Shown one piece after another: positions 314 to 60,608 of a stretch of 64,000 nt of DNA. A model generated the notes under the pieces. The model searched no databases, was not told the origin of the DNA, and was given only the letters and a program-made list of their open reading frames with translations. The translations under genes were made by a program, and so were the position numbers. The stretch comes from Plumapathes pennacea (taxonomy: Eukaryota > Cnidaria > Anthozoa > Antipatharia > Myriopathidae): the NCBI GenBank assembly GCA_964036295.1, contig OZ038472.1, positions 3,983,501 to 4,047,500 of the forward strand, written 5' to 3'. Numbering within the stretch: position 1 is the first letter of the stretch; every line of letters begins with the position of its first letter.

Positions 314-3300
314 CTTTGTTTGTGGAGGAATATGTTGGTGGTTCTATTATTGTGGAGGAATCCGGATTGAACGAAGTAGCTCCTACAGAAATTATGTTTC
401 GTGTTAGTAAACAAGGGAAAGGAGGGTGTGTATATTGCGCATATAAAATTGAGATTTCAATTGTTCCGTTTCATTGCTGGCTGGACAACGTGGTAGAAAT
501 ATTAGAAGACTGGTGTCAGTTTTTCGCAGGAGGAAGAGGCGACGATGGGAAAATAATTCCTGATGTTTTTTTATCTTGGGAACCAGTTCCACTTTAGTGC
601 AAACGTAACTGAATAAAGCCTGACCAAAAAGTCATATTTTAAATTTCCTTTTTTGTTAGGTAAAAACTCATTCAAATTCAACTAAAAGGATTTGGTGCAA
701 CATTATTATCGTATAGTAATCATATTTAGTACCGAAAACGAAAAAATATTTTTGGAGATTGCTGCATGCGCAACTCTAAAATTTGCTCACCTGGTTTAGA
801 GTTAACCAAAACATTTTGAAACTCGCTGCAGCTCTGTGTTGGCATGACGGAAATCTCGCTTTGACCGTCTAGGAAGATTTTACTTTGACCTGACGGGTCC
901 TGGGCTTTGAACGTAACTTGTTGGTGCAGTTCCGGGTGATGAACGGGGATTCTTAGTTTGAAATGTTCCCCTTTCACAAGATAGTTATCGTATCTCAGAC
1001 TCGACGTGAGCTTGTACGGACTTCCGGCTTGATTAATGAAGTTCAAAGCAACACACATCTCTAAAATGATAAAAACACGAAGTGTTGTAGCTACTTACGA
1101 AATGTACAAGTTTGAAGTAACCAACAGCTTAATTACCACTAAAAATTTGCAGAGTGGGGAATCGCATTATATGTATGCTCAAGGGTAATACATCTAATAG
1201 ACGCCACAGTCACATTACCCAAAAGAAATCAGTATTTCAGATGAATAGACAGATTCGTATTTTGTTTGTATTCGTATTTGGTCAATCATAATGAGTGATT
1301 ACAATGAGTGATTTTTTTTTTTTTTAGTTTTAGAAAGAAATGCAGCATTGAAATCCTTTGGTATACTCTAAGGTGAAAAAAAAGCTCATTTTAATGCATC
1401 CCATTACAACGTACCTCCAGCATGGATGCGCGATAATTCTGCCACTAGTTTTTGAGATTTGGCAGTTTTATGAGTAGAAGTCGCGAGGAACTTGGAGTGT
1501 TGTCCAGGGATTGTTTTAGGATTGTAAGGCGAGAGGACCTTCTTGCAATTCATTTTCGGATTTTCGTCTTCCCGTATCGGCATAAAGACGTACGAACATG
1601 GTGCTGATCGATCGTATGCGAGGTTGATAAACATGTTGTTCTTACGGACAGGATCTGTGCGGCAGGGGCCCCAAAAGTTATGCAAGGAATCCAAGAGAAT
1701 ATTTCGCGGGAACTGCACTGGTTTGATCACAAGCATAGAGGCATCACGGTCTAAAGTAACGAAAACAATTTATAGAACAATGATCATGGACTAATAAATC
1801 TCAAGTTAGGCAGTAGAGAGCACTTGTAACTAAGTTCAGTTGCAGCATAAATTCTGCTCTTGGAGTACGGCCTGGTCACATGACACCATTCATTTTCTAT
1901 TTCAATAACGTTCTGAGACTCACCAAATACAGAAGAACCATCCCTCTTTTCCAATATGTATCGGTAGTTCTTTTGCCTCAAATAGTATCCAGGAAAACAC
2001 GTTGACTCAAGAGAGACACTCGGCCTTATTTTATTGCCAAGTGATGGAGCGTGGGCTTTGAAAACCTGACATTTTGCAAGAAGCATTAACCGACCATATC
2101 TTGACGCCCAACAGAAATTCAAGTCAACATCTATTTGACGCTCTGGCACATCCCAGGCATAGATTTTATAGAACGCACCATTCACCACTGTGGAAAAAAT
2201 AATATAGAATATAACAAAAATAATAAGAACAATAATGATAATAATAACAAGATTGTATACTAATGCTCTAATAATATTATGTGAAGAATATGTTACAAAT
2301 ATGAATAAACCTTTTTTTAGGTTAATTTTAAAATTGACTGTTTCGGAAATGGGATTCAAAACTTTTGCCTGTTTCTTTCAATAATTTAAATTACACCTAC
2401 TTTTCCGGTACTCGATTGAATGAACTAAATACCGTGTCAGGTGACACCCTTGGCATCGAGGAAAGTATCTAACTAAACGATTACCCGTTTTGGCGCCACC
2501 AGTGTCGTAGACCTCGGCTCTTGCTAAAACGTTGGGGTCCTGACCATCTTTCGGGTTCAAAATAGCAGCAAAACCATTCTCCACAGCACGCGACCCTGTT
2601 AAGGGACGAGTGGAACCTCCTCCTACGAGAATTGATGCAGAAGTTGCTCCTGCTTTTGCTCCTGCAGCTTGACCCGTTGCTCCTCCTGCACTCCTTCCTG
2701 TCCCTGTCCCTGGAAGAACCCCTCCTCCTACGCCCATTCCTATCTCTGGATGAACTCTTCCTCCTACGCCCATTCTTGTCCCTGGATGAACGCCTCCTTC
2801 TGCGCCCATTCTTGTCCCAGGATGAACGCCTCCTCCTACGCCCATTCTTGTCCCTGGATCAATGCCTCCTACACCCATTCCTGTCCCTGGATCAACGCCT
2901 CCTGCACCCATTCCTGTCCCTGGATCAACGCCTACTCCTGCACCCATTCCTGTCCCTGGATCAACGCCTCCTACACCCATTCCTGTCCCTGGATCAACGC
3001 CTCCTACACCCATTCCTGTCCCTGGATCAACGCCTCCTGCACCCATTCCTGTCCCTGGATCAACGCCTCCTCCTACGCCCATTCTTGTCCCTGGATCAAT
3101 GCCTTCTACACCCATTCCTGTCCCTGGATCAACGCCTCCTCTTCCTCCTCCTTCCTGTGCTGCTCCTCCTTGACCTCCAGGATCTGTGCTTCCCTCAGTT
3201 CTAACAGGCTTGGTCACTACTGTTCCGTTATAAAAGTAGATTCTGAATATGTGTCCGTGTATCGGGATCTCCTTCAAACCATCGTTTAGTGTCTTCAGAG

Positions 3301-6300
3301 TCATTTCAACTGCTGCTTTCTCGCCGGCTTCACCACCAGCCTCGGCCCCAGCCATCCTGCCTGCTTGAGCACCCGCAATCGCACCTGCTCTTGTTGCGGA
3401 GCGTGACGCCGCTCTTATTCCTACAGAGGCGCCGGCTTTGGCTCCAGCTCGCGCTGCTACCTTCATGAGACTCCAGTTAATAGTAGAGTCCAGGCCTAAG
3501 AACGGGAACTTCTTTAGTGCTGATGGCTTAGGTTAGCTTAAGATGTCTGCTTAATACAAGTTTAGACTTTTTTGTGTCTTTTGCTTCTGTGGAGATGTAG
3601 ACACTATGCTATTGTGTATATGTAAGCGTAAGAATTGTTAAGTTGTCGTTTCAGCCAAAATCATTGAATTTAATGTCGTTTAAAACTCTGGATTGCCGAT
3701 GAGCTAGCAGCCACACGTTAAACGTACGACAAAAACAATGTTGATTGCAAGCGTAAATTACTCCGGGATTTTTGTAAGCTGTACCACCAAAATTACTACT
3801 TACTTGTGGAAGGCGAATGTGTATATTATTAATTTGTGCATTTTTGGAGATGAAGTGTAAGATGACGCTTGCTTAGGGAGTTTACGAGTCATATTGCATT
3901 ATCGATTCTCTAAAAGTCGACTATTGATGTAATGACCTAAAATAGCATGTTTGTACTGCATGATGAGCGCACAAAGCGGCGAAAGGGGAAGAAGGGAAGC
4001 TGTGAGTAGTAACATATAACTTTCCATGGCCAGGCATGGTCTCAAATCAGTAGACACATGTACCCATTGGGTACCTAATAAGAAGAGAAATTCAAATCTT
4101 ACTTGGTGCGGATGGCGTGTCAGTCCAAAGGAATTGCGAGGGAATTGGACCATAAAACTTCCCATCCGGTGTACGTACTGCGACGTCCAGGTTATTTAAG
4201 CCATACTGTTCTTTCTGTAACGCCTCAATGTAGTAATACTTTCCTTTTGTCAGCATGAGATCGTGTGAACGTTGATTTTGATACCTGTACTCATGAATAA
4301 ATGTAAAAAACTTTACATCCCAAGTTACAATGCAAGAATCCAAACTAGATTTTTTTATTTTCTTCGTTTTTGACCTCTGACGAAAACTCAATGAAGCTGA
4401 ACTTTAGTAAACGGCTTATTTAGAATAATTTCAACTGTTAAAAATGTTCATTTAATGATCAATATGAAAAGGTTGCTCGTGTTAGTGATTTAGTTGACGA
4501 AATAACCTGACACTCTGTATATGTTAACCTTTTCACTCCCAAGTTCAAACTTCACAGGAAGAAGATGTACAAATTATGTGATGAGAATTGATAGTTTAAT
4601 CAGGTTTTATCTAAGCATTATTGTAGCAAAAACCAACTTTTCATTGCTGTACATGAAATATTTCTGGTGAGGAAACGAAGGAGAAAATTGAAGTTGATCA
4701 ATGCACTTACTTGTACCATTCCCTGTATTTAGTACTCTGAGCACCAAGCACATATGCAATTCTGACTTTGTTATCAGGATTCTGGTCGTAGCTGAGGTAA
4801 AGATTTCCAGTGTCGTCCGCAGCTGAAATAAGAGATCCACCAATGTCCAGTCGTTGAACAGTTTAAATACATGTTGTTTTTATTTTTACTTCAGTTCTGT
4901 AGTTCAGCTGAACGTATATTTAAGTAATAACTCATTGCAGGTATACACTTGGAATTTTAAGGAGCTTTACACTCACCTTACATATGTTAAACTCGCAGCT
5001 GAAACTAGCTCTCTTTCAAATTTAATATAGCGCAAGGAAGAAGTCCACAGAACCAGTTCAAAGTGTAAAACGGAAAACAAGAAACAAAAAACACTCGTTT
5101 GTGTATCTTAACCATATATAGAAGGGGTATTATCTCATTTGCCTGCATTATGAGTCTTTAAAGCTTGAATATTAAGTTATTAATATTAATCCTAGCTAAC
5201 TCACCTATGTAGAATGCATGATTTCCAGATTGTTTTGGCACAAAGTAAGCCCTTATTCGCGCACCAAAGTTGGAACCCCAATTACTTGGGCTTGAGAATG
5301 ACGGTAAATATCCGCTGTACGTTGGCATGCTTGGAAAGCGAGGATTCTGTATCAGGTATTTTATTTTGTAATAGTCGATGTTGGTCCATGCTTCGAAGAA
5401 AACTCCTGGTCTTCTCTCGATTGCTGAAACATAAACGGAATAGTACTATGAACAATTTGCGATGAAAGCCAAAATTGAAAGCGGGACAACAAAAATGTGG
5501 CCGGCCAAGACTTGACAAATGCTAAGTACAATTTCTAATTTTCTAATTTTCTAATTTCTAATTCTATTTCTCGTGAGCGGTCGGACACCGCGAGAAATGC
5601 GTTGTGCGGTCGTGCGGTCATCCAATTTTTGAGTCAGCGGTCACTGTACAAAACTGGATTCAAGTGCAGATTTTGTAGTTCTGTATATAAGAGTTTGTAA
5701 ATCCTCAAGACTTAGCCAAGAAACTCAGTATTAGGAATCGGTATCCAACTATAGATTAGTTCAGTGCATTTTATATAACATGAGTCATGCAAAGAAAAAT
5801 GAGGCTTGCACAGTTGTTGCGGAATTTTACGCTGACTAAGATAAGTGGTGTATTTCTCGGTAGTTTATACTGGTTACATATATATGCCTGACTTCTTCCT
5901 GTACCGTGAGAAATCAACTCAGACCGGTCTCACGTAATCGCTTGATACTTTCTCACCGGTATCTTGCACCTAAACGTTTCTGTCACGATAATATTTGAGA
6001 AGTCACGCGATCTGTCTCAGTAAAAATTGCTCATGTGTGATTTTAACTCTAAGTGCAAGAAAGAAGGGTCGATAAAGAAGGCGTGTCTGGACCTGTTAAA
6101 ACTCAGGTTTTCTGTCGATCGTAAAACAAAGAAAACGTTCGAACCGAACAAATATACGAACAAACTTAAATCGAGAAATCTTTGATATTATAGTACTACA
6201 GCGACTCTCAAGCGATGTAATTTTCCTCTATTGCAGTCTCATTTCATCTGTGTATATGCTTTTCTCGTCCTGGAATGGTTTAGTGCGAAATTGAGTACGT

Positions 6301-6963
6301 TACAAGATGGGAATTAAATTTCAGTACAGGAGCGGCGCCATAAAGGAAACACGCGACTATAAGCAGAACATTATAAAATGGTTTGAGCTCTCACGTTTTC
6401 TTGTTTGTCTCATGCGACCCCGCACATGAGAGTAAGCTTCAGAAAAACTGGTTTTGGTGACCTCTGTCTCGACCTTTGAGCTCTTTGTTATCGTCAAACA
6501 AGTCAAATTATTTGTGATCATAGGATCCGTTATGTATATGACCACCGTCTTGATAACCTGAGTTGTTTGTTATCGAGAAATAAGTCATAATATTTGTGAT
6601 CATAGGGTTCGCTATGTGTATAAAACGTTTGAAATAAAAATAAAGACTATGAGTGGACATGATCGACTGTCCTGGGGCAATTTTAAAGCCGTTGGCTAAA
6701 TGGTCGATCTTTATGAAATAGGAATGATCAATGTCTCACTGACTAATGGGTCTTAAAGGTTTGACATTGCAAAATATAAATCCTTGTAACACAATCTCTT
6801 AAAGTAAGAGCGCTTGTAGAACAAAGTGTAGAACGTCACATAGGTACTTACTGTTTCCAAATCCTGTAGTCATGCTTCTTCTGGATTTCTCACAGTTTAC
6901 AACCGCACAAAATTGACTTAACCAATATATAATTGTTATCAGGTTTTTAAAGCGTATTGCCAT
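314..6963 (-). CDS. Gene A: secreted PA14 / silk-like / AbfB-like / CRD-family protein, 3' end off the window
   Basis: Predicted exons, in transcript order: 6963-6852, 5423-5205, 4822-4711, 4284-4103, 3495-2485, 2187-1924, 1750-1415, 1060-791, 382-314. They join in frame for 858 residues, ending in phase 1. The CRD exon found in the other paralogs must lie left of base 1. Residues 1-37 are a signal peptide ([20 protein letters not shown]), then KSRRS. Residues 38-208 are PA14: [28 protein letters not shown], the DD of [12 protein letters not shown], and NPDNKVRIA. Residues 209-545 hold the GAKAGAS...GEKAA zipper block, LKTLNDGLK, then 11-residue units of the type [11 protein letters not shown], and the tail [16 protein letters not shown]. 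Exon 6 is AbfB-like (FPGYYLRQKNY, KRDGS). Exons 7 and 8 are conserved modules of unknown family. An AG acceptor directly precedes the ATG, so the 5'UTR is probably spliced. Extracellular structural protein by inference; the exon structure is well supported. Confidence 0.8.
2700..3160 (-). repeat. Coding minisatellite of gene A, 33-36 bp units
   Basis: About 13 units of 33 or 36 bp inside exon 5. They encode [15 protein letters not shown] repeats, with Arg and His variants (GTRMG, VHPGTRMG) towards the C-terminal end. Degenerate units lie at the plus-strand left side and near-identical ones in the middle, the usual picture of unequal exchange homogenising the centre of an array. Confidence 0.85.
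4528..4706. repeat. Dispersed ~190-bp element (AACCCTTTCACTCCCAAG family), intron 3 of gene A
   Basis: Starts near AACCTTTTCACTCCCAAG and ends GAAGGAGAAAATTGAAGTTG-ATCA, touching the exon 3 donor. Other copies: 14694-14880, 48583-48785, 49055-49252, 51045-51195, 54517-54728, 55819-56012, and inverted at 43120-43330 and 50608-50827. Confidence 0.7.
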
Positions 6964-8209: not shown

Positions 8210-9110
8210 TCAGCGGCCACTGCTTGAACAACAATGGCCAGGGCACAAAGTTTGACAAGAGGCTTGTACCCGACAGGTGGCAGGACAACCTGCGAAAAAG
8301 AGAGTATAATAGATAAAGTAAACTAACAACCGTTATACAAATAATAAGATTTGCTAGTAAAACTTTTGATCTAACGATTTTGTTTCAGATAGAACTTTTC
8401 ATTTGGAAGAGCATTCTATAAATTTTCTCGACAGTGAAAGCGAATCATAAAACCGTGTCCTTGCAGTAGGTAACCCAATTTATTATATACATACTGAGAC
8501 ATACTCACGAAAAAGCCATATCGTAAAATTTCGTACGCAAATGAGTTCTAGCCAATGAGAGGCCGCGAACGACGCTTTTCACACGTGAAAAAAATCGTTC
8601 GTCCAATCACAAGCTGCGAACGACGATTTTTCACTACTTTTAAAGGGTTTCCCGGTCCCATCATAAATGTCTCAGTATGTATATAATAAACAGAAAACAT
8701 CATGGAAAGTGCTTTGTACAGTTTTTATTCACTCGTTGTTTCGTATCATAAAACTCACTCGCTCGCAAAGCCTCGCTCGTTCGTTTTATGATACTTCACA
8801 ACTCGTGAATAAAAACCGTACGCGCGCACTTTCCATGAAGTAATCTCTATGTACTGTATTTTTTACGATGCTAAATATTTTGTACGCAGCGTACAATCCA
8901 ATGTGTTTTAGTTTCTGTGTGACTTTGCGAGAATATTATGCTGGCCAATATAATTTCAAGGGTGTCTTTAGGTCGAGGATAACCTCTTACGCATACAATT
9001 TTTGTGCTCGTCACGCAATTTCCTCCCTCGCGAACGTCTGCTTAAACGAGTAGCCAATTCCGTCCGCCGATGTTCAAACACACCTCGTTTATCAATTTTG
9101 TATTCAAATA

Positions 9111-9182: not shown

Positions 9183-12100
9183 GGATATGTAATAGTTAAA
9201 TTTGGTTATGGAAATTGGTTAAATCGTTAGTAATATTTGAACTCCTTTTCTCGTTGTATCATTTACTCAGTGTGAAGTTAAATCGCTCCACACGCGGAAT
9301 AAAAGTAGTGTCAGCAGTGAATTAGCTTTTAAATTTAAAAATATCTCAAATAAAATACTGATAATTGATTGAAGTACTCAAACTACTTTGGATTTGGATG
9401 GATATTTCACCCAGTCGAAAAAGGAACCACATATTTATTAACGTTTACCGACGTGCAGCTAGAAATGAATGAAAGATTTGTCTTACAAACGCTGTAATTT
9501 AACTTCATTTTGAAAGCTTTCATAATTGCGGCTGCTGGACTTGTTCTTAAAGAGAATAGTTTTTGGACTTCGCTTTTGATACTAATTTATGATTACCATC
9601 ATGATAAAACAAGTTTACTTGTTTGTTATGTGAAAATCAAATGGAAAATTGGCATTTACCTTTAGTAGTAGAGGAAGATGCGGGTGGTTGTGATGGATTG
9701 AAAGAAGTAGATGGAGGAAAAGTCTTTGTAGTTCCTGCACGGAAATCAAGTTTTGTGTTAATAAACAGGGAGAAGTTGGGCGTACTGTATATACTGCGCA
9801 AATAAAACTTATATTTCACTTGTTCCAGTTAATTTTGGTAGCAGTCTCAGAAACCCAGAAAAATAGGGGAAAAAATCCGATGTTTGTTTAAACTGGAAAC
9901 AAATACAACATGCTTAACTGTCCTGGAAACCAATTTTACTGTACAAACTTAACTGAATAATATGAATGGAGCTGACTGGAGTAAGTCACATTATAAAAAG
10001 CTGTTTAACTGTTAAGAATGTAAAAGTTCAAGCACTAAAATGGTTTGACGCAACTAAGGTATGTTGTGGCATATAATGTCGAAAACTTTTAAAATTCTAA
10101 AAATTGCTGATTGACATTTGGCCGCCAACGGCAAGCGTATCAGGCTGGAAGCAAATTGCTGCATGCGCAACTCTGAAATTTCCTCACCTGGTTTAGAGTT
10201 AACAAAAACATTTTGAAACTCGTTGCAGCTCTGTGTCGGTATGACGGAGATCTCGCTGTAACCGTCTAGGAAAATCGTATTTTGACCTGACGGGTCCCAA
10301 GCTTTGAACGTAACATGCTGGTGTAGTTCAGGATGGTGAACAAGGATTCTTAGTTTGAAGTGTTCCCCTTTTACAAGGTAGTCCTCGTGTTTCAGACTCG
10401 ACGTGAGCTTGTACGGACGTCCGGCCTGGTTAATTAAGTTCAAAGCAACACACATCTCTGAAATGATAAAAACAAGTGTTGTAGCTACTTACGAAATGTA
10501 CAAGTTTAAAGTAACCAACAGCTTAATTACCACTAAAAATTTGCATAGAGGGAAATCGCGTAATATGCATGCTCAAGAGTAATAAATTTAATAGTAGATA
10601 TCACAGTCGAATTACCTAAAAGAAATCAGTATTTCAGATCTATAGACAGATTCGTATTTTACTTTTGGTCAATCAAAATGAGTGACTATAAAACATGCAG
10701 CATCGAAATCCTTTGAAAAATGTGCTCATTTTAATATCTCCCATTACAACGTACCTCCAGAATGAATGCGCGATAATTCTGCCACTAGTTTTTGAGATTT
10801 ATGAGTAGAAGTCGCGACGAACTTGGAGTGTTGTCCAGGGATTGTTTTAGGACCGTAAGGCGCGAGGACCCTCTTGCAGTTCATTTTTGGATCTTCGTCT
10901 TCCCGTATTGGCATGAAGATGTACGAACACCGATCCAAATATTCTGATGCTGATCGATCGTATGCGAGGTTGATAAACATGTTGTTCTTACGGACAGGAT
11001 CTGTGCGGCACGGACCCCAAAATTTATGCAAAGAGCCCAAGAGAATATTTCGCGGGAACTTCACCGGTTTGATCAAAAGCATAGAGGCCTCACGGTCTAA
11101 AGGAACGATAACAGTTTAAAGAACAATGATTAAGGACTAAATCTTAAGTTAGGCAGTAGAAAACAATTGTTTTAATTGAGTTCAGTTCCAGCATAAATTC
11201 TGTTCTTGGAGTGCGGGCTGATCCCATCTGATCTATTTTTGTGTAGTGTTTATGTAATCGTTTGCTATTTACCGAACGTAGTGTTAAATATTGGTGATAC
11301 CATCCATTTTCTATTTCAATAACGTTGTGAGACTCACCAAAGGCAGAAGATCCATCCCTCTTTTCCAATATGTAGTGGTAGTTCTTTTGTTTCAAATAGA
11401 ATCCAGGAAAACACGTTGACTCAAGAGAGACACTCGGCCTTATTTTATTGCCAAGTGATGGAACGTGGGCCTTGAAAACCTGACATTTTGCAAGAAGCAT
11501 TAACCGACCATATCTTGACGCCCAACAGAAATTCACGTCAACATCTATTTGACGCTCTGGCACATCCGAGGCATAGATTTTATAGAACGCACCATTCACC
11601 ACTGTGGAAAACATAATATAGAATATAACAAAAATAATAAGAACAATAATGATAATAATAACAGGATTGTATACTAATGCTCTAATAATATTATGTGAAG
11701 AATATGTTACAAATATGAATAAACTTTCTTTTTTAGGTTACTTATAAAATTACTGTTTCGGAAATGGGAAGCAAAACTTTTGCCGGTTTCATTATATAAT
11801 CTTAAATTAACAATGTTTCCAGTACTCGATTGAGTGAACTAAGTACCTTGTCATCAAAATCGGAAGTTTACAAGCATGATATTTTCTGCTGCATTTTATA
11901 TTTTTTTTATCAGTATACTTTGAGGTGTCACCCTTGGCATCGAAAGTATCTAAATAGCCGATTACCCGTTTTGGCGCCACCAGTGTCGTAAACCTCGGCT
12001 CTTGCTAAAACATTGGGGTCCTGTCCATCTTTCGGGGTCAAAATGGCAGCAAAACCTTTCTCCACATATTGCGATTTGGCTGGCATTGTGAGAGTTGATG

Positions 12101-15100
12101 CAGAAATTGCTCCTGCTCCTGCTCCTGCAGCTTGACCCGTTGCTGCTCCTGCACTCGTCTCTGTCCCTGTCCCTGGACCAACGCCTCCTCCTACGCCCAT
12201 TCCTGTCCCTGGACCAACGCCTCCTCCTACACCCATTCCTATCCCTGGACCAACGCCTCCTCCTACACCCATTCCTACCCCTGGACCAACGCCTTCTCCT
12301 ACACCCATTCCTACCCCTGGACCAACGCCTTCTCCTGCACCCATTCCTACCCCTGGACCAACGCCTCCTCCTGCACCCATTCCTACCCCTGGACCAACGC
12401 CTCCTCCTGCACCCATTCCTACCCCTGGACCAACGCCTTCTCCTGCACCCATTCCTACCCCTGGACCAACGCCTCCTCCTGCACCCATTCCTACCCCTGG
12501 ACCAACGCCTCCTCCTGCACCCATTCCTACCCCTGGACCAACGCCTTCTCCTGCACCCATTCCTACCCCTGGACCAACGCCTCCTCCTACACCCATTCCT
12601 ACCCCTGGACCAACGCCTTCTCCTGCACCCATTCCTACCCCTGGACCAACGCCTTCTCCTGCACCCATTCCTACCCCTGGACCAACGCCTCCTCCTACAC
12701 CCATTCCTATCCCTGAACCAACGCCTCCTCCTACACCCATTCCTACCCCTGGACCAGCGCCTCCTCCTCCCTCTCCCTGTGCTCCTCCTCCTTGTCCTCC
12801 AGGATCTGTGCTTCCCTCAGTTCCAACAGGTTCAGTCATTACTGTTCCGTTATTAAGGTAGACATTGAATACCTTTCCATTTATCGGGATGTGCTTCAAA
12901 CCATCGTTTAGTGTTTTCAGAGTCATTTCAGCTGCTGCTTTCTCTCCTGCTTCACCACCAGCCTCAGCCCCAGCCATCCTGCCTGCTTGAGCACCCGCAA
13001 TCGCACCTGCCTTTGCTGCAGCGCGTGACGCCGTTATCATTCCAAATGAGGCGCCGGCTTTGGCTCCTGCTCGTGCTGCTACCCTCATGAGACTCCAATT
13101 AATAGTTGAGTTCAGGCCTAAGAACGGGAACCTCTTTAGTGCAGGGCCCGGTTTTTCGAAAGCCGATTAAGCTAATCCAGGATTAACGAAATTCTTTCTC
13201 TCGACCCCTCTGCCAATAAACTGCGGAGTTTTGTTCGAAGATGGATTAAAAAGCTTGTTCCAGCTTAAAAACGCATAAAGGAAGTTGTTGTGGACGAACC
13301 CTTCACATTTTCAGGCATATAAATGACATGAAAGTTAAGACCTAATCCAGGATTAGCCTAATCGTGCTTTGAAAAACCGGGCCCTGATGGCTTAGGTTAG
13401 CTTAGGATGTCTGCTTAATACAAGTTTAGACTTTTTGTGTCTTTTGCTTCTACGGAGATGTCGACACTATGCTATTGTGCATATGTAAGCGTATAAGTTT
13501 TTAAGTTGTGGTTTCAGCCAAAAGCAGTGAATTTAGTTTAGCTCTGGGCCCGTTTTTTCAAAGCACGATTAGGCTAATCCTGGATTAGGTCTAAAGTTTC
13601 ATGTCATTTATATGCCTGAAAATGCGAAGGTTTCGTCCCTTTATGCGTTTTTAAGCTGGAACAAGCTTTTTAATCCATCTTCGAACAAAACTCTGCAGTT
13701 TATTGGCAGCGGGATCGAGAGAAAGAATTTCGTTATTCCTGGATTAGCTTAATCGGCTTTCGAAAAACCGGGCCCTTGAGTGCCGATGAGCTAGCAGCCG
13801 CGCGATAAACGTACGACAAAAACAATGTTGGTTGCAAGCGTAAATCACTCCGGGATTCTTTTAAGCTTTACCACCAAAATTCCTACTTATCTGTCGAAAG
13901 CGAATGTGTATACTCTTTGTGCTTTTTGGAGATGAATTTTGAGATGAATTTGTGCATAAAACTAAGCATTACAGTGTAGTTAACCGCACGCTTGCTTACG
14001 GAGTTTACAAGTCGTGTTACATTATCAATTCTCTAAAAGTCGACCATTGATGTGATGACCAAATATAACATGTTTCTGCTGCCTGATGTGCGCACAAAGC
14101 GGCGAAAGGGGAAGAAGGGAAGCTGTGAGTAGTAACATGAAACTCTGCATGGCCAGGCATGGTACTGAAATCAGTAGACACGTGTACCCATTGGGTACCT
14201 GATAGGAAGAGAATTTCAAGTCTTACTCGGTGGGGGTGACGTGTCAGTCCAAAGGAAATCCGAGGGAATGGGACCATAAAACTTTCCATCTGGTGTTTGG
14301 ACTGCGACGTCCAGGTTATTTGAGCCATATTGTTCTTTCTGTAACGTCTCCATGTAGTAATACTTTCCCTTTGTCAGCATGATATCTTGTGAACGTTGAT
14401 TTTCATACCTGTACTCATGAAAAAATGTAGAGATTAAAAAAAGAACTTTACATTCCGAGTTACAGTACAAGAATCCAAACTAGATTTTGTATTTTCTTCG
14501 TTATTTACCTCAGAGAGAGAGAGAGGGGGTACGCGAGTATTAAGTATTTGACGAAAACTCAGTGAAGCTGAACTTTAGTAAACGGTTTATTTAGAATAGT
14601 TTTACCTCTTAAAAATTTTAATCTAATGACCAATAGGAGACGTTTGCTCGAGTTAGTGGTTTAGTCGAAGAAATAGCCTGACACCCTGTGTATGTTAATT
14701 AACCTTGCCACTTCCAAGCTCAAACCTCACACGAAGAAAGTGTACAAACTATGTAATGAGAATTGATAATTTAGTCAGGTTTCGTCTGAACATGGTATCA
14801 AAAACCAATTTCTCCTTGCTGTACAGGATATATTTCTGGTGAGGAGATGAGGAGAAAATTGAAGTTGATCAATCCACTTACTTGAACCATTCCCTGTATT
14901 TAGTACTCTGATCCTCTTCCACATGTGCAATTCTGACTTTGTTGTCAGGATTCGAGTCATAGCTGAGGTAAAGATTGCCAGTGTCGTCCGCAGCTAAAAC
15001 AAGAAAAAGATCTTCAAATAAATCTACCAATGTCTAGTCGTTGAACAGTTCAGATACTTGTTGTTTTTATCTTGAATTCCTGTGGTTCAGCTAAAGGTAT

Positions 15101-18590: not shown

Positions 18591-19451
18591 TCAGCGGCCA
18601 CTGCTTGAACAACAATGGCCAGGGCACAAAGTTTGACAAGAGGCTTGTGCCCGGCAGGTGGCAGGACAACCTGCGAAAAAGAGATTATAATGATAAAGTA
18701 TACTAACAGCCGTTATGCAAATAATAAAATTTATTAGTAAAACTTTTGATCTAACGATTTTATTTCAGATAGAACTTTCCATTTGGAAGAGCATTCTATA
18801 GATTTTGTTGACATTGAAAGCGAATCATAAAACCGTGTTCTTGCAGTATGTAGCCCAATGTACTGTATTTTTACGATGCTGTACGCAGCGTACAATCCAA
18901 TGTGTTTTAGTTTCTGTGTGACTTTGCGAGAATATGTTGGTCTATACAATTGTAAAGGTGTCTTTAGGTCGAGGCTAGCCTCTTACGCAGACAATTTTTG
19001 GGCTCGTCACGTAGTTTCCTCCCTCGCGAACGTCTTCTTAAACGAGCAACCATTTCCGTTTGCGTTGAGATTGGCCAATCACATCTCGTTTATCGATTTT
19101 CGAAAAGCTGGACATTAACCTCATGTTAATTTCCACTCCGCGTGTATCAATTTCCATTCTTTCGTAGCTTATGAATGGCTATCTGTAACACAATGAGTGC
19201 GGGATGCTGATTGGTTCCTACAATGGGCGAACGGAAGTGGGAGTTCGTGGGACAGGGATTTGCCTGACGAACCCAAAGAACGTCTGCGTAGGAGGTTAGG
19301 TAGAGGCAAGACAGCCACATATAATGACTGTGACTTTGGTTACATTGGCTTTCTTTTACATAAATTCTTACCTGGTGGACCCATTTCCGGAGCTGGATGG
19401 TAGTGGAAATGATAGTGAGGGCCTGTTGTATTCAATAAATAAATAAGTAAC

Positions 19452-25500: not shown

Positions 25501-26025
25501 GAAGCAAAAAGTTTGAACAGGATACACAAAACAAAGTGAAACATATAAACAAATTAAAACCTAGAAATCTAGTTACAAGGTGTACGAGTCTCTCGCCTTA
25601 ACTAGCCTCAAAGAACGTAACTTCCTTTTATTGTCTCGTTGTCTTCTGGTTATCTGCCTTTCTTGTCGTAGAGCCCGTTTATCTTTAGTAGTTTAGTGAG
25701 AAATAGAGCAAGTGCTTTTCTAGATGGGGATTTAATTTCAGTGCGGGCTCGCTCGCACGCATACGGTTTGAACTCAAACGGTTTTCCTCGTCATCTGGGG
25801 CTTCGGAGGCACTTAAGCAAAAACGTGCGTTTCAACGAAAAAAGAATGACCTTGCTGGCCAGTGTAAATCTTTAAACTCCAACAACAAAATATAGAACGC
25901 AAACAGAAGTACTTACTTTGACCAAATCCTGCTGTCAAGCTTCTTCTGGATTTCTCGCAGTTTACAGTCGCAGACAATTGACTTAAGCAATAAATGATGG
26001 TTATCAAGTTAAAAGGTGTTGCCAT
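18591..26025 (-). CDS. Gene C: complete PA14 / short silk-like / AbfB-like / minicollagen-CRD protein, 795 aa
   Basis: Exons: 26025-25917, 24861-24643, 24146-24035, 23401-23220, 22988-22272, 21823-21557, 21066-20710, 20436-20167, 19755-19681, 18670-18591; sum 2388 bp, open throughout. The signal peptide is MATPFNLITIIYCLSQLSAT, then NCEKSRRS. An upstream in-frame ATG (26085) would add about 20 residues; I chose the internal one because it matches A and B. PA14 (about 37-207) has [40 protein letters not shown] and NPDNKVRIA. Exon 5 is the shorter, less repetitive form: zipper block, a poly-Gly stretch, GTGTGTG, then (Ala-Gly) runs. Exon 6 has SFESACFPGYY; exon 7 has WGPCRTDPV and [13 protein letters not shown]. 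The CRD (18670-18591) differs from B only at one residue (RAQ for RVQ), so the 3' part of B and C diverged recently. Confidence 0.87.
19453..19520. repeat. (AAT)n microsatellite in intron 9 of gene C
   Basis: About 22 AAT units with the same right flank (CGGATATGTAATAGTTAAAT) as in gene B, so the locus predates the B/C duplication. Confidence 0.95.
22445..22660 (-). repeat. Coding Ala/Gly-rich low-complexity tract of gene C
   Basis: A short stretch of exon 5 with Ala-Gly runs, GTGTGTG and a poly-Gly block. There is no clean tandem unit, so it may be an older or contracted form of the repeat region. Confidence 0.75.
23447..23876. mobile_element. Insertion with GGGG...CCCC ends and candidate 9-bp target duplication, intron 3 of gene C
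   Basis: About 430 bp, starting GGGGGGGGCACTC and ending CCCCCTCCGGGAT, with TTTTACACC directly before (23438-23446) and after (23877-23885). Inside are several copies of ATACCCTATTTCAGACC. It sits about 45 bp from exon 4. Confidence 0.65.
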
Positions 26026-35422: not shown

Positions 35423-35456
<34 letters not shown>

Positions 35457-37011: not shown

Positions 37012-37044
<33 letters not shown>

Positions 37045-42828: not shown

Positions 42829-42970
42829 TGTTAGAAGGGTCACCCTTCTCTATTGAAATTCCTTGTTCCGTTTACATGATACCCAGCAGGGACAACTTAT
42901 GGCCATGTAAACGCTCGAGGTAGCGTTACCCTCCCAGGGGATCACCCTCCTTCCATGTAAGCAGGGCCTA
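42829..42970. mobile_element. MITE-like element, second copy of the AGAAGGGTCACCC family
   Basis: Shares AGAAGGGTCACCCTT, TATTGAAATTCCTTG and CAGCAGGGACA with the copy at 44456, and ends CATGTAAGCAGGGCCTA. Its left end is less clear. Confidence 0.55.
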
Positions 42971-43449: not shown

Positions 43450-51743
<8,294 letters not shown>

Positions 51744-52889: not shown

Positions 52890-55800
52890 TTATAATAGGT
52901 TCCTTTTGCAACAGCTGGCAGGGCACAGGGCTTCACAGTTGACGTTTACTGGGCAGGTGCCGGGACAACCTGCTAAAAGACCAAGATTGACAGAGAGTCA
53001 AAATTGACCGCCTAACGCGTTCAAATAAAATAAACGCGCGCCGTGTTTGCACTAGGCTTGGATATATTCTGCCGGCATAATTTCAAGCATAATTCACTAC
53101 TTCGGGCAGCGAGCATTATGCCGGCATAATTCCGCATTTTCAAGCATAAATTAAGCATAATATGATAAAATCAGTAAGACAAAGACATGCAAATTCAAAT
53201 CGAAAATATCTTGTGATTCGCCCAACATTTGCTAAAACGAGCCCGCATCACACGCAATCGGGAGTGGTAATCGGGAATGGTAATCGGGAGTGATAATCGG
53301 GAGTGATAATCGGGAGTGGTAATCGGGAGTGATAATCAGGAGTGATAATCGGGAGTTGCAATCGGGAGTTGCAATCGGGAGTGGTAATCGGGAGAGGTAA
53401 TTGTGAGTGATAATCGGGAATGGCAATCGGGAGTGTCAATTACCACTCCCGATTACCACTCCCGATTACCACTCCCGATTGCAACTCCCGATTGCAACTC
53501 CCGATTACCACTCTCAATTACCACTCCCGATTACCACTCCCTATTACCACTCCCGATTACCACTCTCGATTACCACCCTCGATTACCACCCTCGATTACC
53601 ACTCTCGATTACCACTCCCGATTACCACTCCCGATTACCACTCCCGATTACCACTCTCGATTACCACTCCCTATTACCACCCTCGATTACCACCCTCGAT
53701 TACCACTCTCGATTACCACCCTCGATTACCACCCTCGATTACCACTCTCGATTACCACTCCCGATTACCACTCTCGATTACCACTCTCGATTACCACTCC
53801 CAATTACCACTCCCGATTATCACTCTCGATTATCACTCCAGGTTATCACTCACAATTAACACTCCCGATTACCTTAGGATGAGTAAAGGGGTAAAGCAAC
53901 TCGACTTCAAATAATTGAAGCACCCATTTAAAATGCGTGAATACGTTACTTTGTAATCATTATATGGAAAATAGAAATAGAAATTTTACCTTTAGCTGGC
54001 GGTTTGTTTGACATCGTAGAGCTTGGATTGGATGAAATATATTGCTTCAAAGCTAGGAGAGAGATCCGGGCTTTTTTTTAGCAACGAAACATACGCCTAT
54101 ATTACATTGTCGCACAACACGGGTCATTTTAATGGATGCCTCACCTGGGATTACGGTAACCAAAACATCGTGAAACTCGCTACAGCTCTGTGTCGGCGAT
54201 ACAGAGACCTCATTTTGACCGTCTAAAAGAATTGTACTTTGACCTGATGGGTCCCAAGCTTTGAACGTAACATGCTGGTGTAGTTCAGGGTGATGAACAA
54301 GGATTCTTAGTTTAAAATGTTCCCCTTTCACAAGATAGTCCTCGTGTTTCAGACTCGACGTGATCTTGTACAGACTCCCGGCTTGATTAATGAAGTTCAA
54401 AGCAACACAAACCTCTGAAATAGTAGAAAGAAAACATTGCATCAACACTGATTTATGTTTCTTCATGTTGGGAACCAAAATCTATACATTTCCAGATGTA
54501 TTGTTTGAAAAGGCCCCCTTAACCCTTTCACTCCCAAACTCAAAATGCAGATTCTCCCAACCTTTTAAGAAGAAACTGTATGAATGATGTAGTGAGAATT
54601 GATAGTTCAATCAACTTTCATCTGAGCAAGTTATCAAAAGCCAAGTTCTCCTTTCTGTATAATATATTTCTGGTGAGAAACTGAAGGAGAAAATTGAAGT
54701 TGATCACTCCTGGAAGTGAAAAGATTAAACGTCCAATAAGACTTACCTCTGTTGTCAACCTGAGATAGTTCAGCGGCGGGCTTTTTACGAGAAATGGCCG
54801 TGAAAAATTCTGGGGACTCTCCGGGAATTATGGGAGGACTGTATGGCGCGAGAACCTGCTTGCAATTCATTCTGGGATCTTCGTTTTTCTGTATCGGCAT
54901 AAAAATGAACGAGCAACTTTTCACTCGGTTCATCGCGGATCGATCGAATCTGAGGTTTATGTATGAATTCTTGTAGATCCCCTTGATTCGAGAAGTTCGG
55001 CACGGTCCCCAATAGGCCTTCAATGATTCCACCACAATGTTGCGTGTATAAAGTACAGGCTTGTACAGCCTAATCGACGCGTCATAGTCTGAATAAAAGA
55101 GAATATAGCTTGTCAATAAGGCTACGTCGACAATGCGTTTTCAAAAAGCTTAACTGCACTAATCCTCCGTTTTCGACTCGCCCGTTCACACTAATTCGTT
55201 TCCATTTTAAAACGCATCCGTTCTTGAAAGTATATACTTTGGGAACCGTTTTTGAAAACGTAGTTTTTCAAGTTATCGTTTAGGTGAGGACAGAAGGCAA
55301 AAATGCATTAAAAAATAGGTATGAAACGAAAAACGAAATCGGGTTAGTGTGGACAGGGCCTGAACGTCACAAAACCGATTTTTACGAAAAACGAACAAAT
55401 TGCTATGAAATCCTGCCACCAGTCGAATTGTGTGTGACGAATGTGATACAAATAGTACTTCACATAACGAAGTAGGAAATTACTTAGGAAGTGATGAAGG
55501 CGAGTAGCCACGCTTCTTTTGTCTTTAAGCACTGGCCAAACTGACTCTCAAGTCAAGTCAAGTCAACTTAAGTTTGCAAATTAAATCAGAACTTGCGTGC
55601 GGTTGGCCAAACGGTACTCACAAATCCAGTCAAGTCACAAGAAAACCATCAGTTGCCATAAAGATGCAATCACCGCGCGTTGAATTGGCTCGACTTGGGT
55701 TGACTTGGGTGGACATTTGAACGCGGTCAGAGTCTAATAACTCAAGCAAATCGAACCAAGTCAAACCAAGGGAGTGGCTGAACGATACCCCTCGACTGGG

Positions 55801-58800
55801 AGTCCGTTTTGCCAGGGCTTAACCCTTTCACTCCTGAGCTCAGATTACAAATTCTCCCAACCAATCAAGAAGAAAATGTATAAGTGATATAGTTAGAATT
55901 GATAGGCCAATCAGCTTTCGTCTGAGTCATATATCAAGCAGCAAATTCTCCACACTAAAGAGACTGAAAGAGAACATTGCAGTTGATCACTGCTAGGAGT
56001 GAAAGAGTTAAACACATCAGAATGCGGAAGTGAGGTCATCGATTTGTCTGCCACGCTTCTCTAGCTTGAAACTCACCAAAAATGTGGGAACCATCTCTCT
56101 TGGCCAAGATGTAGCGGTAGTTTTTCTGTCTTATGTAATATCCAGGAAAACATGCAGATTCAAAAGATGCACTCGGTTCGGTCGGAAGCAAAGACGTGTC
56201 TTTTCTGTACAGTGATGGCACGTGAGCTTTGAAGTACTGGCAGTCCTGAAGCAGCATAATCCTACTGTGTCTTGACGTCCAACAGAAATTCATACTCGCA
56301 TCCTTTTGCATCTCTGGCACATCCCAGGCGTGGATTTTGTAGAACGCACCAGACACCACTGCATACATAACGTAATGTTTAGTAATCTAGAAATCGTTCA
56401 TGCTTAAAATACCGTAAATGCTCTAACAAGCCCCCTCCCCTTCCCCTACAAGGTAATTTTTTGACATTGGCCCCTCTTACAAGCCTTATAATAAGCCTCT
56501 CTTTCCTATAAGCCCCTTCTACAAGGTCAGTTTTTGAAACAAGCTCCCCGACTGTCAGCAGCAAACTTAGTAGGGAAAGAATACATATGATGCTGCATTA
56601 GATGCTTGGTGATATCCGTTTTAAGAATACCCCTTGCTGTCATTTCAGCTTTTTAACTAACCCCTCCCCCCCCCCCCTCTATAAAGTCAATATGGGTCAC
56701 ATCATGTGCAAGCCTCACGTTTCTAGAAAATGCATTGAAAGTTGAATAGAGAAGTTGAATTGAGTTTCTTGGCTGAAGTCCTAGCTGTCCTAGGCCTGAA
56801 GTCCTAGCGAGCGCTAACTGAAATGCAAAATCTACATTTCAGTCCACGATTTTGTGCAGTGACCACTTACCCGTTTTTGCACCACCAGTTTCATAAATCT
56901 CGGCTCTTGCTAACGCATTGGCGTCCTGGCCATCTTTGGGAATCATGACCGCTGCTACACCGCTATTGCGGGAAGCAGAGGAAACGCCCGAGTTTTCGGC
57001 TGCCTCTTTGCCTGTTTCTGCTCCCAACACTGCTCCTGCCTTCCCTGCTACCGCTGCCCCCGCCCTTGCTTCTTCTCCCTCTGCTGCTGTCCCTTCGCCC
57101 CCTGTTGCTGCTACTGCTTCTGACGTTTCTTTTCCTGCTGTTACTGTCGTTACTCCTTCACCGGCCCCTGCTTCTTCTCCTCCTCCTCTGTGTTTTTCTG
57201 CTTTCTCCCCCTTTTCACCCTTCATCCCTTCAGGACCAGAATTCCCGCCAGTTTCAGGTTCAGCCGTCACTATTCCATTCTTATATTGGACTTCGAATAT
57301 CTTTCCATTTATGGGCATATCCTTCAACCCATCGTTTAGTGTTTTTAAGGTCATCTCAGCGGCTGCTGTTTCACCCGCTTTGCCACCAGCCTCGGCCCCA
57401 GCCCTCCTGCCTGCTTGAGCACCAGCAATGGCGCCAGCCCTCGTTCCGGTGTATGACGCTGCTGAGCTTCCCATATAAGCACCGGTCTTGGCTCCCGCTT
57501 CTGCTGTTATTCTCAAGAGCCACCAATTGATGGTGGAGTTCAGGCCTAAAGGTAGCAGTGTAACGAAATTTCAACAAAGATATACCATGAAGGTCTAACC
57601 AATGATTTATCCGCTTCAAAGGGAATCCAAACGCATTACCTTGGCTTCCTATTGGTTGAAAGCGTTTCTTTTAGCTTCTGTGATTGGCGGTGTAATTGCT
57701 GGTGTAGCTACGTTTGTTTTGGTTTCACGCCAAACAAAGGTTCAACAAAGATATAACACAAAGGTCTAATCTGGATTTTTACATTTTGTGACTTATCAAG
57801 AGATCCTCAGTAATTACCATCAACATAAAATGAAATTTTGGTAACCAAAAAGAGGGATTACATAAATTGATACCTGCACTGAACGGTTTAATGAAATGGG
57901 GGGAAACATGATATAAAGGTTTAACTGTTTAAAGTGGTTTTTGGCTTATTGTCAAAAGTAATCATATGTCATTGCTTTGGTTTTGCCTTATCGCTTTTGG
58001 ATTGTTCCAAACTTAACTTGGAATCACTTACCTGGTGAAGGTGGCGTGTCAGTCCAGAGGAATTCTGAGGGAATGGGACCATGAAACTTCCCATCCGGTG
58101 TTTTAACTGCAACATCCAAGTTGTCCTCGCTATATTGTTCTTTAACGAGGGCTTCTATGTAATAATACTTTCCCTTCATCAACATGATTTTCTCTGATTC
58201 CTGATGGTTGTACCTACATATACCAAAACGTACGTTATTAATAATACATAATATGTGAACAATGTAAACATCAGTAAACTACAGTCAGATATTACTGCGA
58301 TGTGTAGAAAGAAGAATACTAGGGCCTATTTTTATAGGACTGCATGTAAAGATACCCGGTCCCAGTTATGCAAAAGCACGATTAGAATAATCCTGGATTA
58401 GGACCAAAAGTTTTTGTCTTTTTTTCTTTGAGCCCTGAAAATAGGACGGTTTCGCTCAAAACTCGGCTTCGATTTGAGCTAACACAAGCTTTTCAGCTGG
58501 CCTCCGGCAAACCTTAACAGTTTGTTGGCCAAAGGGTCGAAGAAAAATAATGATTTCGATAACCCTGGATTAGCTTAATCGCCTTGATCCGATAAGCATG
58601 GCTACTGTTTGGACCTTGTTTAGACCAGGACTATATTAACTGCGGCCTAAACCTGGTTTAAAAGGCCCCAACAGTTTGTTGGCCAAGGGGTCGAAGAAAA
58701 TTGTGATTTCGTTAATCCTGGAGTTTAATCGGACTTCACAACTTGGCCCCAGTTGCACGAGTAAGCCGATACTGAGGGATCCTGTTACACTACACAATTC

Positions 58801-60608
58801 TTTAGCAACTTGTCTCTTAACTGCGTTTTGGATTTACTCCCTATGCCCAAGAGCCAGACTTGTTAATAAATAAGTTAAATAGACTTTGCTTACGTAAACC
58901 ATTCTCCAGGCTTAGTTGTCCATCCACCAGTACCGGCGTTTGCAATCTTAACTTTGTTTTTAGGGTTGGTATCTGGGCTGAGGTACAGTATTCCACCAGA
59001 GTTTGCATCTAAAAAGGAAAGAAAAGCCAAAAATCAAAAACGAAAATACCGTCATCATGTAAATACAAGTAACATAGAAAGCATTGAAGAAGCAAAGGTT
59101 ATCTGGATTGCGATAATGAACAGGCATTCAACAGAAGAAAGTCATGCTCAACAATTCGGCACGAATACACTGGCGACAGTCAGGCCCAAGTCAAACGCCG
59201 CACTTCACATGAGCCAAACTCAACTCAGCGAATTAAGTTCATGTGAAGTTCGGTGTTTGACCCAGTTAAGTTCGACCGATTGTATTTGGAGCGGCTGGTC
59301 CGCGATGTTCACGGCTAGTCGCCGTCAGTTTGACTCAACAGGCGAACTTAATAAATTTGGGTCGACCTAAACTGTAATTGAGTTCGGCTTATGTGAAGTA
59401 CGGCGTTTGACCCGGGAAAAGTTCAAGAGTTTCCTGGTTTGATACAATTGTCTTTAGCAGTGGAAGGATTACAGAATGGCAGACTTATTGAAGGGACTTA
59501 CCAATGTAAAATCTATGATATCCAGTTTGCTTCGGCACAAAGAATGCTCGTATTCGGGCACCGAAGTTGTCTCCCCAGTTGATTGGCTCTGAGAAGGTTG
59601 GGTAGTATCCAGTGTATGACGGCAGACGTGGAAAACGAGGATGCTTTATCAAGAACTTCAAGTCGAAAAAGTCTATGTTATCCCATCTCTCGATGAAAAC
59701 GCCTGGTTTTCTCTCGATGGCTGAAACGTATAGTTTAATCACATTCATCAGTTTTGCGACATAATTAATGCCGCTTAGTAAACTACAAGACTGGCTTGGG
59801 TAAACAAGATAGTTGATATGCGATGGATTTGGTACTTTAAGGACTGCGAAAATTTACGTTGTATTGAAAAATAAGATGTTACTAGGGATCAACATAATTA
59901 CTTAATGTTAAGTTTTGTTTTGCCTCCGACAGGCACCTTGTTTGTTTACGGTGATAATAATTTGAAATGGGTCAGACTATGCTCCTTATTTCGGTGAAGT
60001 TTGGATTAGATTGAGTGATCGCATCCAACTCATATTCAACAAACATTCAGTAACTACACATGTGCCCCGGTGAATGTAAGCAGAGTGAATTGAATTTAAG
60101 TAAATTAGTTTGTGTATTTATATACTGCTTCCTGGAAAATACTGAACAATTAACTGTAAGGGACAAAGCAAAAAGTACGACGAAAGATTTGGAGACATTC
60201 TGATGAGGATCGAAAATATACGCATGTTCGTTATGATGTTGCCAGGTGGAAGTGAGACATTACCAAATAACAAACAGTCTCTGCCGTAAAGCCTGGTTTT
60301 CACGAGTGACGTTAACACAAGACTCCTCATTTCCGTTAAAACAGGCTTGACGCAAGCACAAGCACAAGGAGCAAAATATTTTGATCTTTGCGTTTGCGCT
60401 TGCGTCGAGTCTGTTTTCACTGTGAAATAAGGACTATTGTGCCTAGTATGATTACTATCTTATTGTAGAAGTGCATAAACCACACACATAGCTTACCTTT
60501 TCCAAATCCAACCTCAAAACTTCCCATTTTGCTCTGACAGTCGATCATTTCAAACAGTAGTTGGGTCAAGCAAAGAACTAAGGCCACTCCATTATTACGT
60601 TTTCTCAT
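52890..60608 (-). CDS. Gene E: complete PA14 / Glu-Ala-Gly / AbfB-like / minicollagen-CRD protein, 779 aa (most divergent)
   Basis: Exons: 60608-60497, 59720-59502, 59008-58894, 58213-58032, 57545-56871, 56358-56077, 55088-54747, 54414-54145, 54052-53990, 52969-52890; sum 2340 bp. Signal peptide MRKRNNGVALVLCLTQLLFE; the dibasic RR after it in A-D is absent. PA14 has PRFPRLPSYTGYYPTF and [16 protein letters not shown], but the DD position reads DANSGG. Exon 5 keeps the zipper block and LNDGLK, then has no tandem repeat: it carries EGMKGEKGEKAEK, with collagen-like G-x-y triplets, and a Glu/Ala/Gly/Thr region. The exon-9 linker (SSNPSSTMSNKPPAKG) is weaker in Pro; its acceptor at 54053 is my best fit. 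CRD: CPGTC-x5-CEALC-x3-CC, then KRNLL and stop. A likely spliced 5'UTR exon (donor near 60818) lies upstream, joined to an acceptor at 60629. Introns contain many repeats. Confidence 0.85.
53255..53875. repeat. 13-bp satellite with a strand switch, intron 9 of gene E
   Basis: 53255-53430 repeats TAATCGGGAGTGG; from about 53438 to 53875 the same unit runs inverted as ATTACCACTCCCG, with about 33 copies. The two arms could pair over at least 170 bp. Confidence 0.88.
54517..54728. repeat. AACCCTTTCACTCCCAAG-family element, intron 7 of gene E
   Basis: A well-preserved copy: AACCCTTTCACTCCCAAACT to TTGATCACTCCTGGAAGTGA-AAAGATTA. The two ends are roughly inverted (CTTTCACTCCCA against TGGAAGTGAAAAG). 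It lies 20 bp from the exon 7 donor. Confidence 0.7.
58355..58755. mobile_element. Diverged copies of MITE family 1 in intron 3 of gene E
   Basis: One degraded copy (about 58355-58600, with GCACGATTAGAATAATCCTG and GGATTAGCTTAATCG) and a partial second (about 58665-58755). The terminal GGGCCC is lost, so these are older than the copies in gene B. Confidence 0.5.

Follow-up and report, generated by a model that had tools for sequence, protein, structure and literature searches.

A tandem array of five genes in the antipatharian Plumapathes pennacea encoding putatively secreted proteins with PA14, glycine-rich, AbfB-like and pVHL-beta-like parts and a C-terminal cysteine-rich domain

RESULTS

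Five paralogous genes in one array

The window, the whole stretch of DNA that was analyzed, consists of 64,000 nucleotides of P. pennacea contig OZ038472.1 (assembly GCA_964036295.1, positions 3,983,501 to 4,047,500, forward strand) and carries five paralogous genes, c1 to c5, all on the minus strand. We rebuilt these genes base by base from conserved blocks and splice sites; exons 1 to 8 were taken from blocks common to the copies, exon 9 from splice reading, and exon 10, which encodes a cysteine-rich domain (CRD), from a cysteine scan. The genes and exons are listed below in window coordinates; the exon rows are splice-joined models, and the PA14 and AbfB labels also follow from Pfam scores.

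c1, 6963 to 314, minus strand, cut by the window start
Exon 1, 6852..6963, minus, ATG and signal-like stretch
Exon 2, 5205..5423, minus, PA14 part 1
Exon 3, 4711..4822, minus, PA14 part 2
Exon 4, 4103..4284, minus, PA14 part 3
Exon 5, 2485..3495, minus, Ala/Gly tetrad segment and repeat-bearing Gly-rich core
Exon 6, 1924..2187, minus, AbfB-like part 1
Exon 7, 1415..1750, minus, AbfB-like part 2
Exon 8, 791..1060, minus, predicted pVHL-beta-like domain (fold modeled on c3)
Exon 9, 314..382, minus, Ser/Thr/Pro linker, after which the gene leaves the window
c2, 16887 to 8210, minus strand, complete, 10 exons
Exon 1, 16776..16887, minus, ATG and signal-like stretch
Exon 2, 15275..15493, minus, PA14 part 1
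Exon 3, 14882..14993, minus, PA14 part 2
Exon 4, 14227..14408, minus, PA14 part 3
Exon 5, 11966..13117, minus, tetrad segment and repeat core (36-bp unit, 16.6 copies)
Exon 6, 11338..11601, minus, AbfB-like part 1
Exon 7, 10755..11096, minus, AbfB-like part 2
Exon 8, 10188..10457, minus, predicted pVHL-beta-like domain
Exon 9, 9660..9734, minus, linker
Exon 10, 8210..8289, minus, CRD and stop
c3, 26025 to 18591, minus strand, complete, 10 exons
Exon 1, 25917..26025, minus, ATG and signal-like stretch
Exon 2, 24643..24861, minus, PA14 part 1
Exon 3, 24035..24146, minus, PA14 part 2
Exon 4, 23220..23401, minus, PA14 part 3
Exon 5, 22272..22988, minus, tetrad segment and short Gly/Ala-rich core
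Exon 6, 21557..21823, minus, AbfB-like part 1
Exon 7, 20710..21066, minus, AbfB-like part 2
Exon 8, 20167..20436, minus, predicted pVHL-beta-like domain (structure model m62863d37cbd3)
Exon 9, 19681..19755, minus, linker
Exon 10, 18591..18670, minus, CRD and stop
c4, 51743 to 43450, minus strand, complete, 10 exons
Exon 1, 51632..51743, minus, ATG and signal-like stretch
Exon 2, 50305..50523, minus, PA14 part 1
Exon 3, 49547..49658, minus, PA14 part 2
Exon 4, 48790..48971, minus, PA14 part 3
Exon 5, 47090..48268, minus, tetrad segment and long GAGAGV-type core
Exon 6, 46480..46761, minus, AbfB-like part 1
Exon 7, 45717..46076, minus, AbfB-like part 2
Exon 8, 44962..45231, minus, predicted pVHL-beta-like domain
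Exon 9, 44137..44250, minus, linker
Exon 10, 43450..43538, minus, CRD and stop
c5, 60608 to 52890, minus strand, complete, 10 exons
Exon 1, 60497..60608, minus, ATG and signal-like stretch
Exon 2, 59502..59720, minus, PA14 part 1
Exon 3, 58894..59008, minus, PA14 part 2
Exon 4, 58032..58213, minus, PA14 part 3
Exon 5, 56871..57545, minus, tetrad segment and non-repetitive Ala/Gly/Glu-rich core
Exon 6, 56077..56358, minus, AbfB-like part 1
Exon 7, 54747..55088, minus, AbfB-like part 2
Exon 8, 54145..54414, minus, predicted pVHL-beta-like domain
Exon 9, 53990..54052, minus, linker
Exon 10, 52890..52969, minus, CRD CPGTCPVNVNCEALCPASCC and stop

The complete genes c2, c3, c4, and c5 encode proteins of 935, 795, 972, and 779 amino acids, respectively, each with an ATG start and a stop after the CRD. 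c1 comprises exons 1 to 9 (858 amino acids) with the frame still open, and its exon 10 is expected to the left of window base 1. The original prediction, made from the sequence alone, had announced ten co-linear exons in each of five minus-strand copies, all closing in frame; 49 of these 50 exons were found in the same phases, the last one (c1 exon 10) lying beyond the window, and closure was found in four of the five copies, c1 being open at the window start. The end points given for the family coincide exactly with the end of c1 exon 9 (314) and with the c5 ATG (60608). The 49 modeled exons contain no internal stop in any of the five frames, all 44 introns within the copies are GT-AG, and the exon out-phases are the same in every copy (1, 1, 2, 1, 1, 1, 1, 1, 1, then the stop). 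Exon 10 sits 0.6 to 1.4 kb downstream of exon 9, and its distance to exon 1 of the next copy is only 1.1 to 1.7 kb in three of four cases (17 kb for c4). Three points led us to assign it to the upstream gene: phase 1 carries on into exon 10, the exon has a stop at its end, and the relatives carry a CRD near the C terminus. With exon 5 excluded, the ratio of nonsynonymous to synonymous changes (dN/dS) was 0.24 to 0.35 in all ten copy pairs, so the gene models are under purifying selection. Together with the same domain order in annotated proteins of other species, this indicates, at the level of sequence, that the conserved array is more than chance.

Relatives in other Hexacorallia

A search with the part that follows the glycine-rich core matched 2 of 1708 candidates: P0001 from Desmophyllum pertusum (7.7e-60), which was the sole animal protein, and a second protein, with AbfB and other domains. 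The PA14 part matched 9 of 669 candidates, two of them PA14 proteins of metagenome-type sources and seven of them hexacoral, namely P0003, P0004, P0005, and P0007 of Nematostella, P0006 of Montipora, P0008 of Actinostola, and P0009 of Actinia. All eight animal relatives found are thus Hexacorallia. A profile search matched 5 of 3638 candidates and missed all of P0003 to P0009, though six of these are within its length range (P0006 is outside). As the protein searches are this insensitive, they do not show a restriction to Hexacorallia, and we claim no absence elsewhere.

Four of the eight relatives (P0003, P0005, P0006, and P0007) run from PA14 through a six-cysteine CRD in one annotated polypeptide. 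The Nematostella proteins LOC116603955, LOC116610670, and LOC116610679 (P0003, P0005, and P0007, named "uncharacterized") share the whole order of the window copies, including the terminal CRD, and are 42 to 49% identical to them in the PA14 part; they differ in a longer linker with HYHYH runs. P0005 and P0007 may be linked in the same way as the window copies, both being listed with the same 17,363,018-base longest contig. P0006 (Montipora foliosa, 1345 amino acids) additionally has three fibronectin type II domains and a long stretch of polyproline; its two CRDs are both canonical. The fibroin-like Nematostella thread gene v1g243188 (PMC9205923; here and below, papers are cited for the excerpts available) was rejected as a member, as its oligonucleotides match no frame of P0003, P0004, P0005, or P0007; these oligonucleotides could be untranslated.

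Domains and cysteines

The copies begin with a hydrophobic, signal-like stretch (judged by eye), in agreement with the prediction of secreted proteins, and the predicted PA14 and AbfB identities hold as well, since both domains pass their Pfam gathering scores in all five copies. For PA14 (PF07691, 24 bits) c1 to c5 score 37.4, 41.1, 33.6, 24.3 (barely above), and 25.6 bits; P0006 to P0009 are also above this score and P0003 is just under it at 23.9. For AbfB/CBM42 (PF05270, 22.8 bits) the scores are 37.7, 30.0, 35.8, 44.3, and 35.9 bits, with P0006 (22.0) and P0008 (17.6) below. Among solved structures, CBM42 domains of arabinofuranosidases match the AbfB-like part of c3 (best E, 3.2e-8), and the PA14 part gave eight matches in PDB, all at chance level (best E, 0.2).

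Exon 5 opens with Ala/Gly tetrads (AGAx) that form a conserved segment of about 50 residues. A pattern scan isolated this segment in c2, c3, c5, P0004, P0005, and P0007, took the core instead in c4, P0003, and P0008, and found nothing in c1, P0001, P0006, and P0009; by eye the segment is also visible in c1, c4, P0003, P0006, P0008, and P0009. A helix is predicted for it at low confidence in P0005. The glycine-rich core that follows is unlike in each copy: GVDPGTGMG-type in c1, a repeat of its own in c2, short GA in c3, long GAGAGV in c4, and Glu-rich and nonrepetitive in c5. The silk-like exons of all five copies contain no cysteine and no GxGQQ. By eye, a central Gly-X-Y collagen domain is absent from the five copy models; the core of c5 exon 5 (56871-57545) has a short run of four collagen-like triplets, GPEGMKGEKGEK, where the other copies have Gly-rich repeats.

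The CRD has the spacing CX3CX5CX3CX3CC in all four complete copies and is followed by 5 to 8 residues. A strict CRD scan of the window gave only plus-strand matches, mostly antisense of silk repeats; a looser cysteine scan revealed the minus-strand CRDs. The minicollagen pattern is CX3CX3CX3CX3CC (PMC3145756, PMC4863159), and this canonical spacing is present in P0006 (both CRDs) and P0007. The predicted minicollagen-type CRD is therefore borne out in its C-terminal position, its six cysteines, and the spacing of these two relatives, but not in the spacing of the window copies. Searched against the 177,635 sequences of PDB, the CRD stretch of P0006 gave three matches at E<=10, two from NOWA and one mini-collagen CRD; with a best E of 0.15 these are suggestive only. 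Our profile A3 gave weak NOWA CRD matches among solved structures (E, 6.2 and 6.8). In c2 to c5 the cysteines are distributed as six in the AbfB-like part, two in exon 8, six in the CRD, and none in PA14, the silk-like part, or the linker; the counts in c1 are equal, minus its CRD.

A predicted pVHL-beta fold in exon 8

Exon 8 encodes a separate domain that adds to the architecture originally predicted. The model of c3 exon 8 confidently predicts a beta-sandwich with the fold of the pVHL beta domain; a full-length AlphaFold model of P0005 has a mean confidence score (pLDDT) of 38.5 and is usable for the exon-8 part alone. Identity to the pVHL beta domain is 5%, the exon-8 domain lies in a putatively secreted protein without an alpha domain, and the Pfam VHL model is not among the matches listed at E<=10. 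We considered a hydroxyproline pocket, which in pVHL has two tryptophans, W88 and W117, and rejected it from the sequences, as the tryptophans are not conserved: exon 8 of c1 to c5 contains 0, 1, 0, 0, and 1 tryptophan, and the single one sits in KAWDP of c2 and c5.

The exon-8 domain is unusually uniform. Synonymous differences per site are lower in exon 8 than in exons 2 to 4, 6, and 7 in nine of the ten copy pairs, eight of these with p<0.01 (c1-c3, p 0.12); the p values are not independent, as the ten pairs share copies. The c3-c4 pair differs at 0.16 in exon 8 versus 0.59 elsewhere (Fisher p 2.6e-9), and its 96% identical tract of 293 bases covers exon 8 plus about 6 to 17 bases on each side, the next best stretches of this pair being 83% identical. 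The c1-c2 pair is reversed, with 0.29 in exon 8 versus 0.14 elsewhere (p 0.016). In Nematostella, P0003, P0004, and P0005 are 86 to 90% identical in the exon-8 domain, versus 39 to 51% in the AbfB part and 72 to 78% in PA14; P0007 is only 37 to 42% identical to these three in the exon-8 domain, and P0003, P0005, and P0007 are 39 to 42% identical to the window copies there. Repeated exchange between paralogues fits this uniformity in the window and in Nematostella, with trees too short for proof. The exon-8 tree differs yet leaves c1+c2 and c1+c2+c3 unrejected (approximately unbiased [AU] test, p 0.199 and 0.134), whereas c3+c4 is rejected by exons 6 and 7 (p 0.0054) and not by exons 2 to 4 (p 0.211). 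The case for gene conversion therefore rests on the synonymous differences.

DISCUSSION

The five paralogues probably encode secreted proteins with a structural role in the wall or thread of the hexacorallian cnidocyst, be it a nematocyst or a spirocyst. Minicollagen CRDs polymerize through disulfide reshuffling (PMC4863159), and in Nematostella the minicollagens go with the cnidocyte lineage (PMC12549020). Since two members have canonical CRDs and CRDs play this role in minicollagens, the family is most simply explained as a cnidocyst structural family. The chain, in the order signal peptide, PA14, tetrad segment, glycine-rich core, AbfB-like domain, pVHL-beta sandwich, linker, and C-terminal CRD, would enter the growing capsule vesicle. 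By analogy with minicollagens, its CRD would swap disulfides with minicollagen CRDs during wall maturation, so that one end of the chain is hooked into the wall or thread polymer. The tetrad segment is possibly an oligomerization helix, the glycine-rich core, whose length and composition vary by paralogue, may act as an extensible spacer, and PA14, the AbfB-like domain, and the exon-8 sandwich may serve as docking modules. An exon-8 partner common to all paralogues would explain the uniformity of this domain. A disulfide-linked polymer of the family itself, as originally proposed, is less well founded, since each window chain has a single CRD, which need not lead to end-to-end polymerization and suggests a one-ended tether.

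Several observations weigh against a cnidocyst role or against the gene models behind it. The window CRD departs from the canonical spacing and, taken alone, has no PDB match at E<=10. The linker of exon 9 is poorly conserved between copies (32 to 83% identity), and therefore the joining of the linker rests on splice sites and phase. P0001 unites the AbfB-like part, the exon-8 domain, and the CRD and is without PA14 and the silk-like part; the predicted models P0004, P0008 (labeled partial), and P0009 are without a CRD, and P0009 is also without the exon-8 domain. A KR site of the minicollagen propeptide kind between the signal and PA14 is present in just one of the five copies (c3) and in P0006; RR is found there in c1 to c4. 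Four locus identifiers and the Desmophyllum identifier are not mentioned in the main texts of the openly licensed PMC literature.

It is quite unlikely that the proteins belong to a secreted matrix or mucus rather than to cnidocytes (in the mesoglea, the cuticle, or the coral skeletal matrix) and borrowed the CRD for disulfide cross-linking. PA14 and AbfB are extracellular modules of a generic kind, and the noncanonical window CRD would also suit such proteins. However, minicollagen-type CRDs have been described from cnidocyst proteins, namely minicollagens, NOWA, and cnidoin (PMC12549020, PMC4321713, PMC4863159, PMC3145756), and canonical ones occur in P0006 and P0007. A lectin role of the kind ascribed to nematogalectin, with chondroitin or other capsule glycans as ligands of PA14 and AbfB, is more of a contender but still unlikely. 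Glycans and nematogalectin do belong to the thread (PMC9205923), and yeast PA14 adhesins use DcisD, a calcium motif, to bind glycans (PMC6218569). At the candidate calcium site of PA14, c1, c2, c3, and P0006 have a DD pair, which may correspond to DcisD; the pair is missing in the other 8 of 12 PA14 sequences. CBM42 contacts arabinose via His, Tyr, and Asp (PMC12493170), but the complete triad is found in none of the 13 family members when the Pfam-matching subdomain is examined; in that subdomain the His is replaced by Gln in all 13, and the Asp is at the exact offset in 5. The sugar site of the AbfB-like domain thus looks disabled, glycan binding there is doubtful, and the glycan binding proposed in the original prediction is weakened.

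Within the preferred reading of a cnidocyst structural family, we consider a narrower form, less likely than not, in which the proteins belong to the thread or inner fibers of the spirocyst, the thin-walled, ensnaring cnida of hexacorals, with paralogues for different parts. All animal relatives found are hexacorals, spirocytes have a restricted distribution, with a fiber network on the capsule wall and thread rods that give rise to an ensnaring web (PMC9935875), and Nematostella cnidocyst paralogues differ between spirocytes and nematocytes (PMC12549020). On the other hand, the insensitive protein searches leave the restriction to Hexacorallia not shown, and no gene of the family is tied to spirocytes.

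Compared with known systems, the family has in common with cnidoin of Hydra, a capsule protein, a silk-like glycine-rich core and a CRD of the minicollagen type (PMC4321713). The likeness to cnidoin that had been proposed holds for composition and not for detail: whereas cnidoin carries a CRD at either end and GxGQQ repeats with a cysteine at x (PMC4321713), the window family has a single C-terminal CRD (c2 to c5), no GxGQQ, and a cysteine-free core, and it adds the PA14, AbfB-like, and pVHL-beta-like domains. Minicollagens (e.g., NvNCol-1, -3, and -4) share the C-terminal CRD; the window family differs in the spacing of this CRD, CX3CX5CX3CX3CC, and in being without a collagen domain. NOWA has other globular domains and several CRDs, and nematogalectin has Gly-X-Y and a galectin domain and is not known to have PA14 or a CRD tail. 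The NOWA CRDs are the nearest PDB neighbors of the P0006 CRD, and nematogalectin, a thread protein, shares with the family the pairing of a glycine-rich part with a domain of the lectin type (PMC4944945). The family seems, from its sequences, to have grown by module addition, as in P0006. The architecture is undescribed in the openly licensed PMC literature searched (subscription journals, e.g., for the Hydra capsule proteome, are outside this scope); PA14 and nematocyst are not mentioned together there, the one paper that links the PA14 domain with corals and cnidarians is about thrombospondins, and AbfB appears in none of the listed works on minicollagen or the cysteine-rich domain. It may therefore be new to the literature, while existing in Nematostella proteins named only "uncharacterized," and most cnidocyte-upregulated Nematostella genes have been reported to be uncharacterized (PMC6161364).

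The capsule network bears up to 150 bar (PMC4863159). A conserved family that joins a CRD tail and a glycine-rich core to three folded domains provides named Nematostella genes for knockdown and localization, and the pVHL-like fold predicted for a putatively secreted structural protein, with its uniformity in each of two lineages, leads to a specific, testable docking hypothesis. In its boldest form, which we regard as very unlikely to hold as a whole, the paralogues would represent a hexacoral class of cnidocyst tethers anchored at one end. The uniform extracellular pVHL-fold module would dock all of them on one shared partner in the wall that is rich in proline or hydroxyproline, either minicollagen or polyproline, with the elastic core and PA14 diversifying by cnida type.

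The rest of the window

With tblastn (five copy models and all but one, P0004, of the eight relatives; E<=0.01, low-complexity filter), no more copies or remnants were found in the window outside the named exons. Of ten open reading frames between or beside the copies, seven lie in 26-43 kb and one each at 18.8, 58.9, and 62.5 kb; none of the ten matches a Pfam family above its cutoff, and Rfam gave no match in the window at the gathering threshold. The 16-kb gap between c3 and c4 (27000-43000) contains simple repeats, for example, at 37736-38483 (21-bp unit). Introns and spacers of the array also contain a dispersed repeat, up to about 200 bp long and occurring in either orientation, which may be a short interspersed element; it lies at the following 10 places, including the seed.

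48584-48781, dispersed repeat
54519-54718, dispersed repeat
14757-14871, dispersed repeat
43131-43320, dispersed repeat
50641-50753, dispersed repeat
51065-51189, dispersed repeat
4582-4700, dispersed repeat
49067-49236, dispersed repeat
17302-17364, dispersed repeat
55848-55925, dispersed repeat

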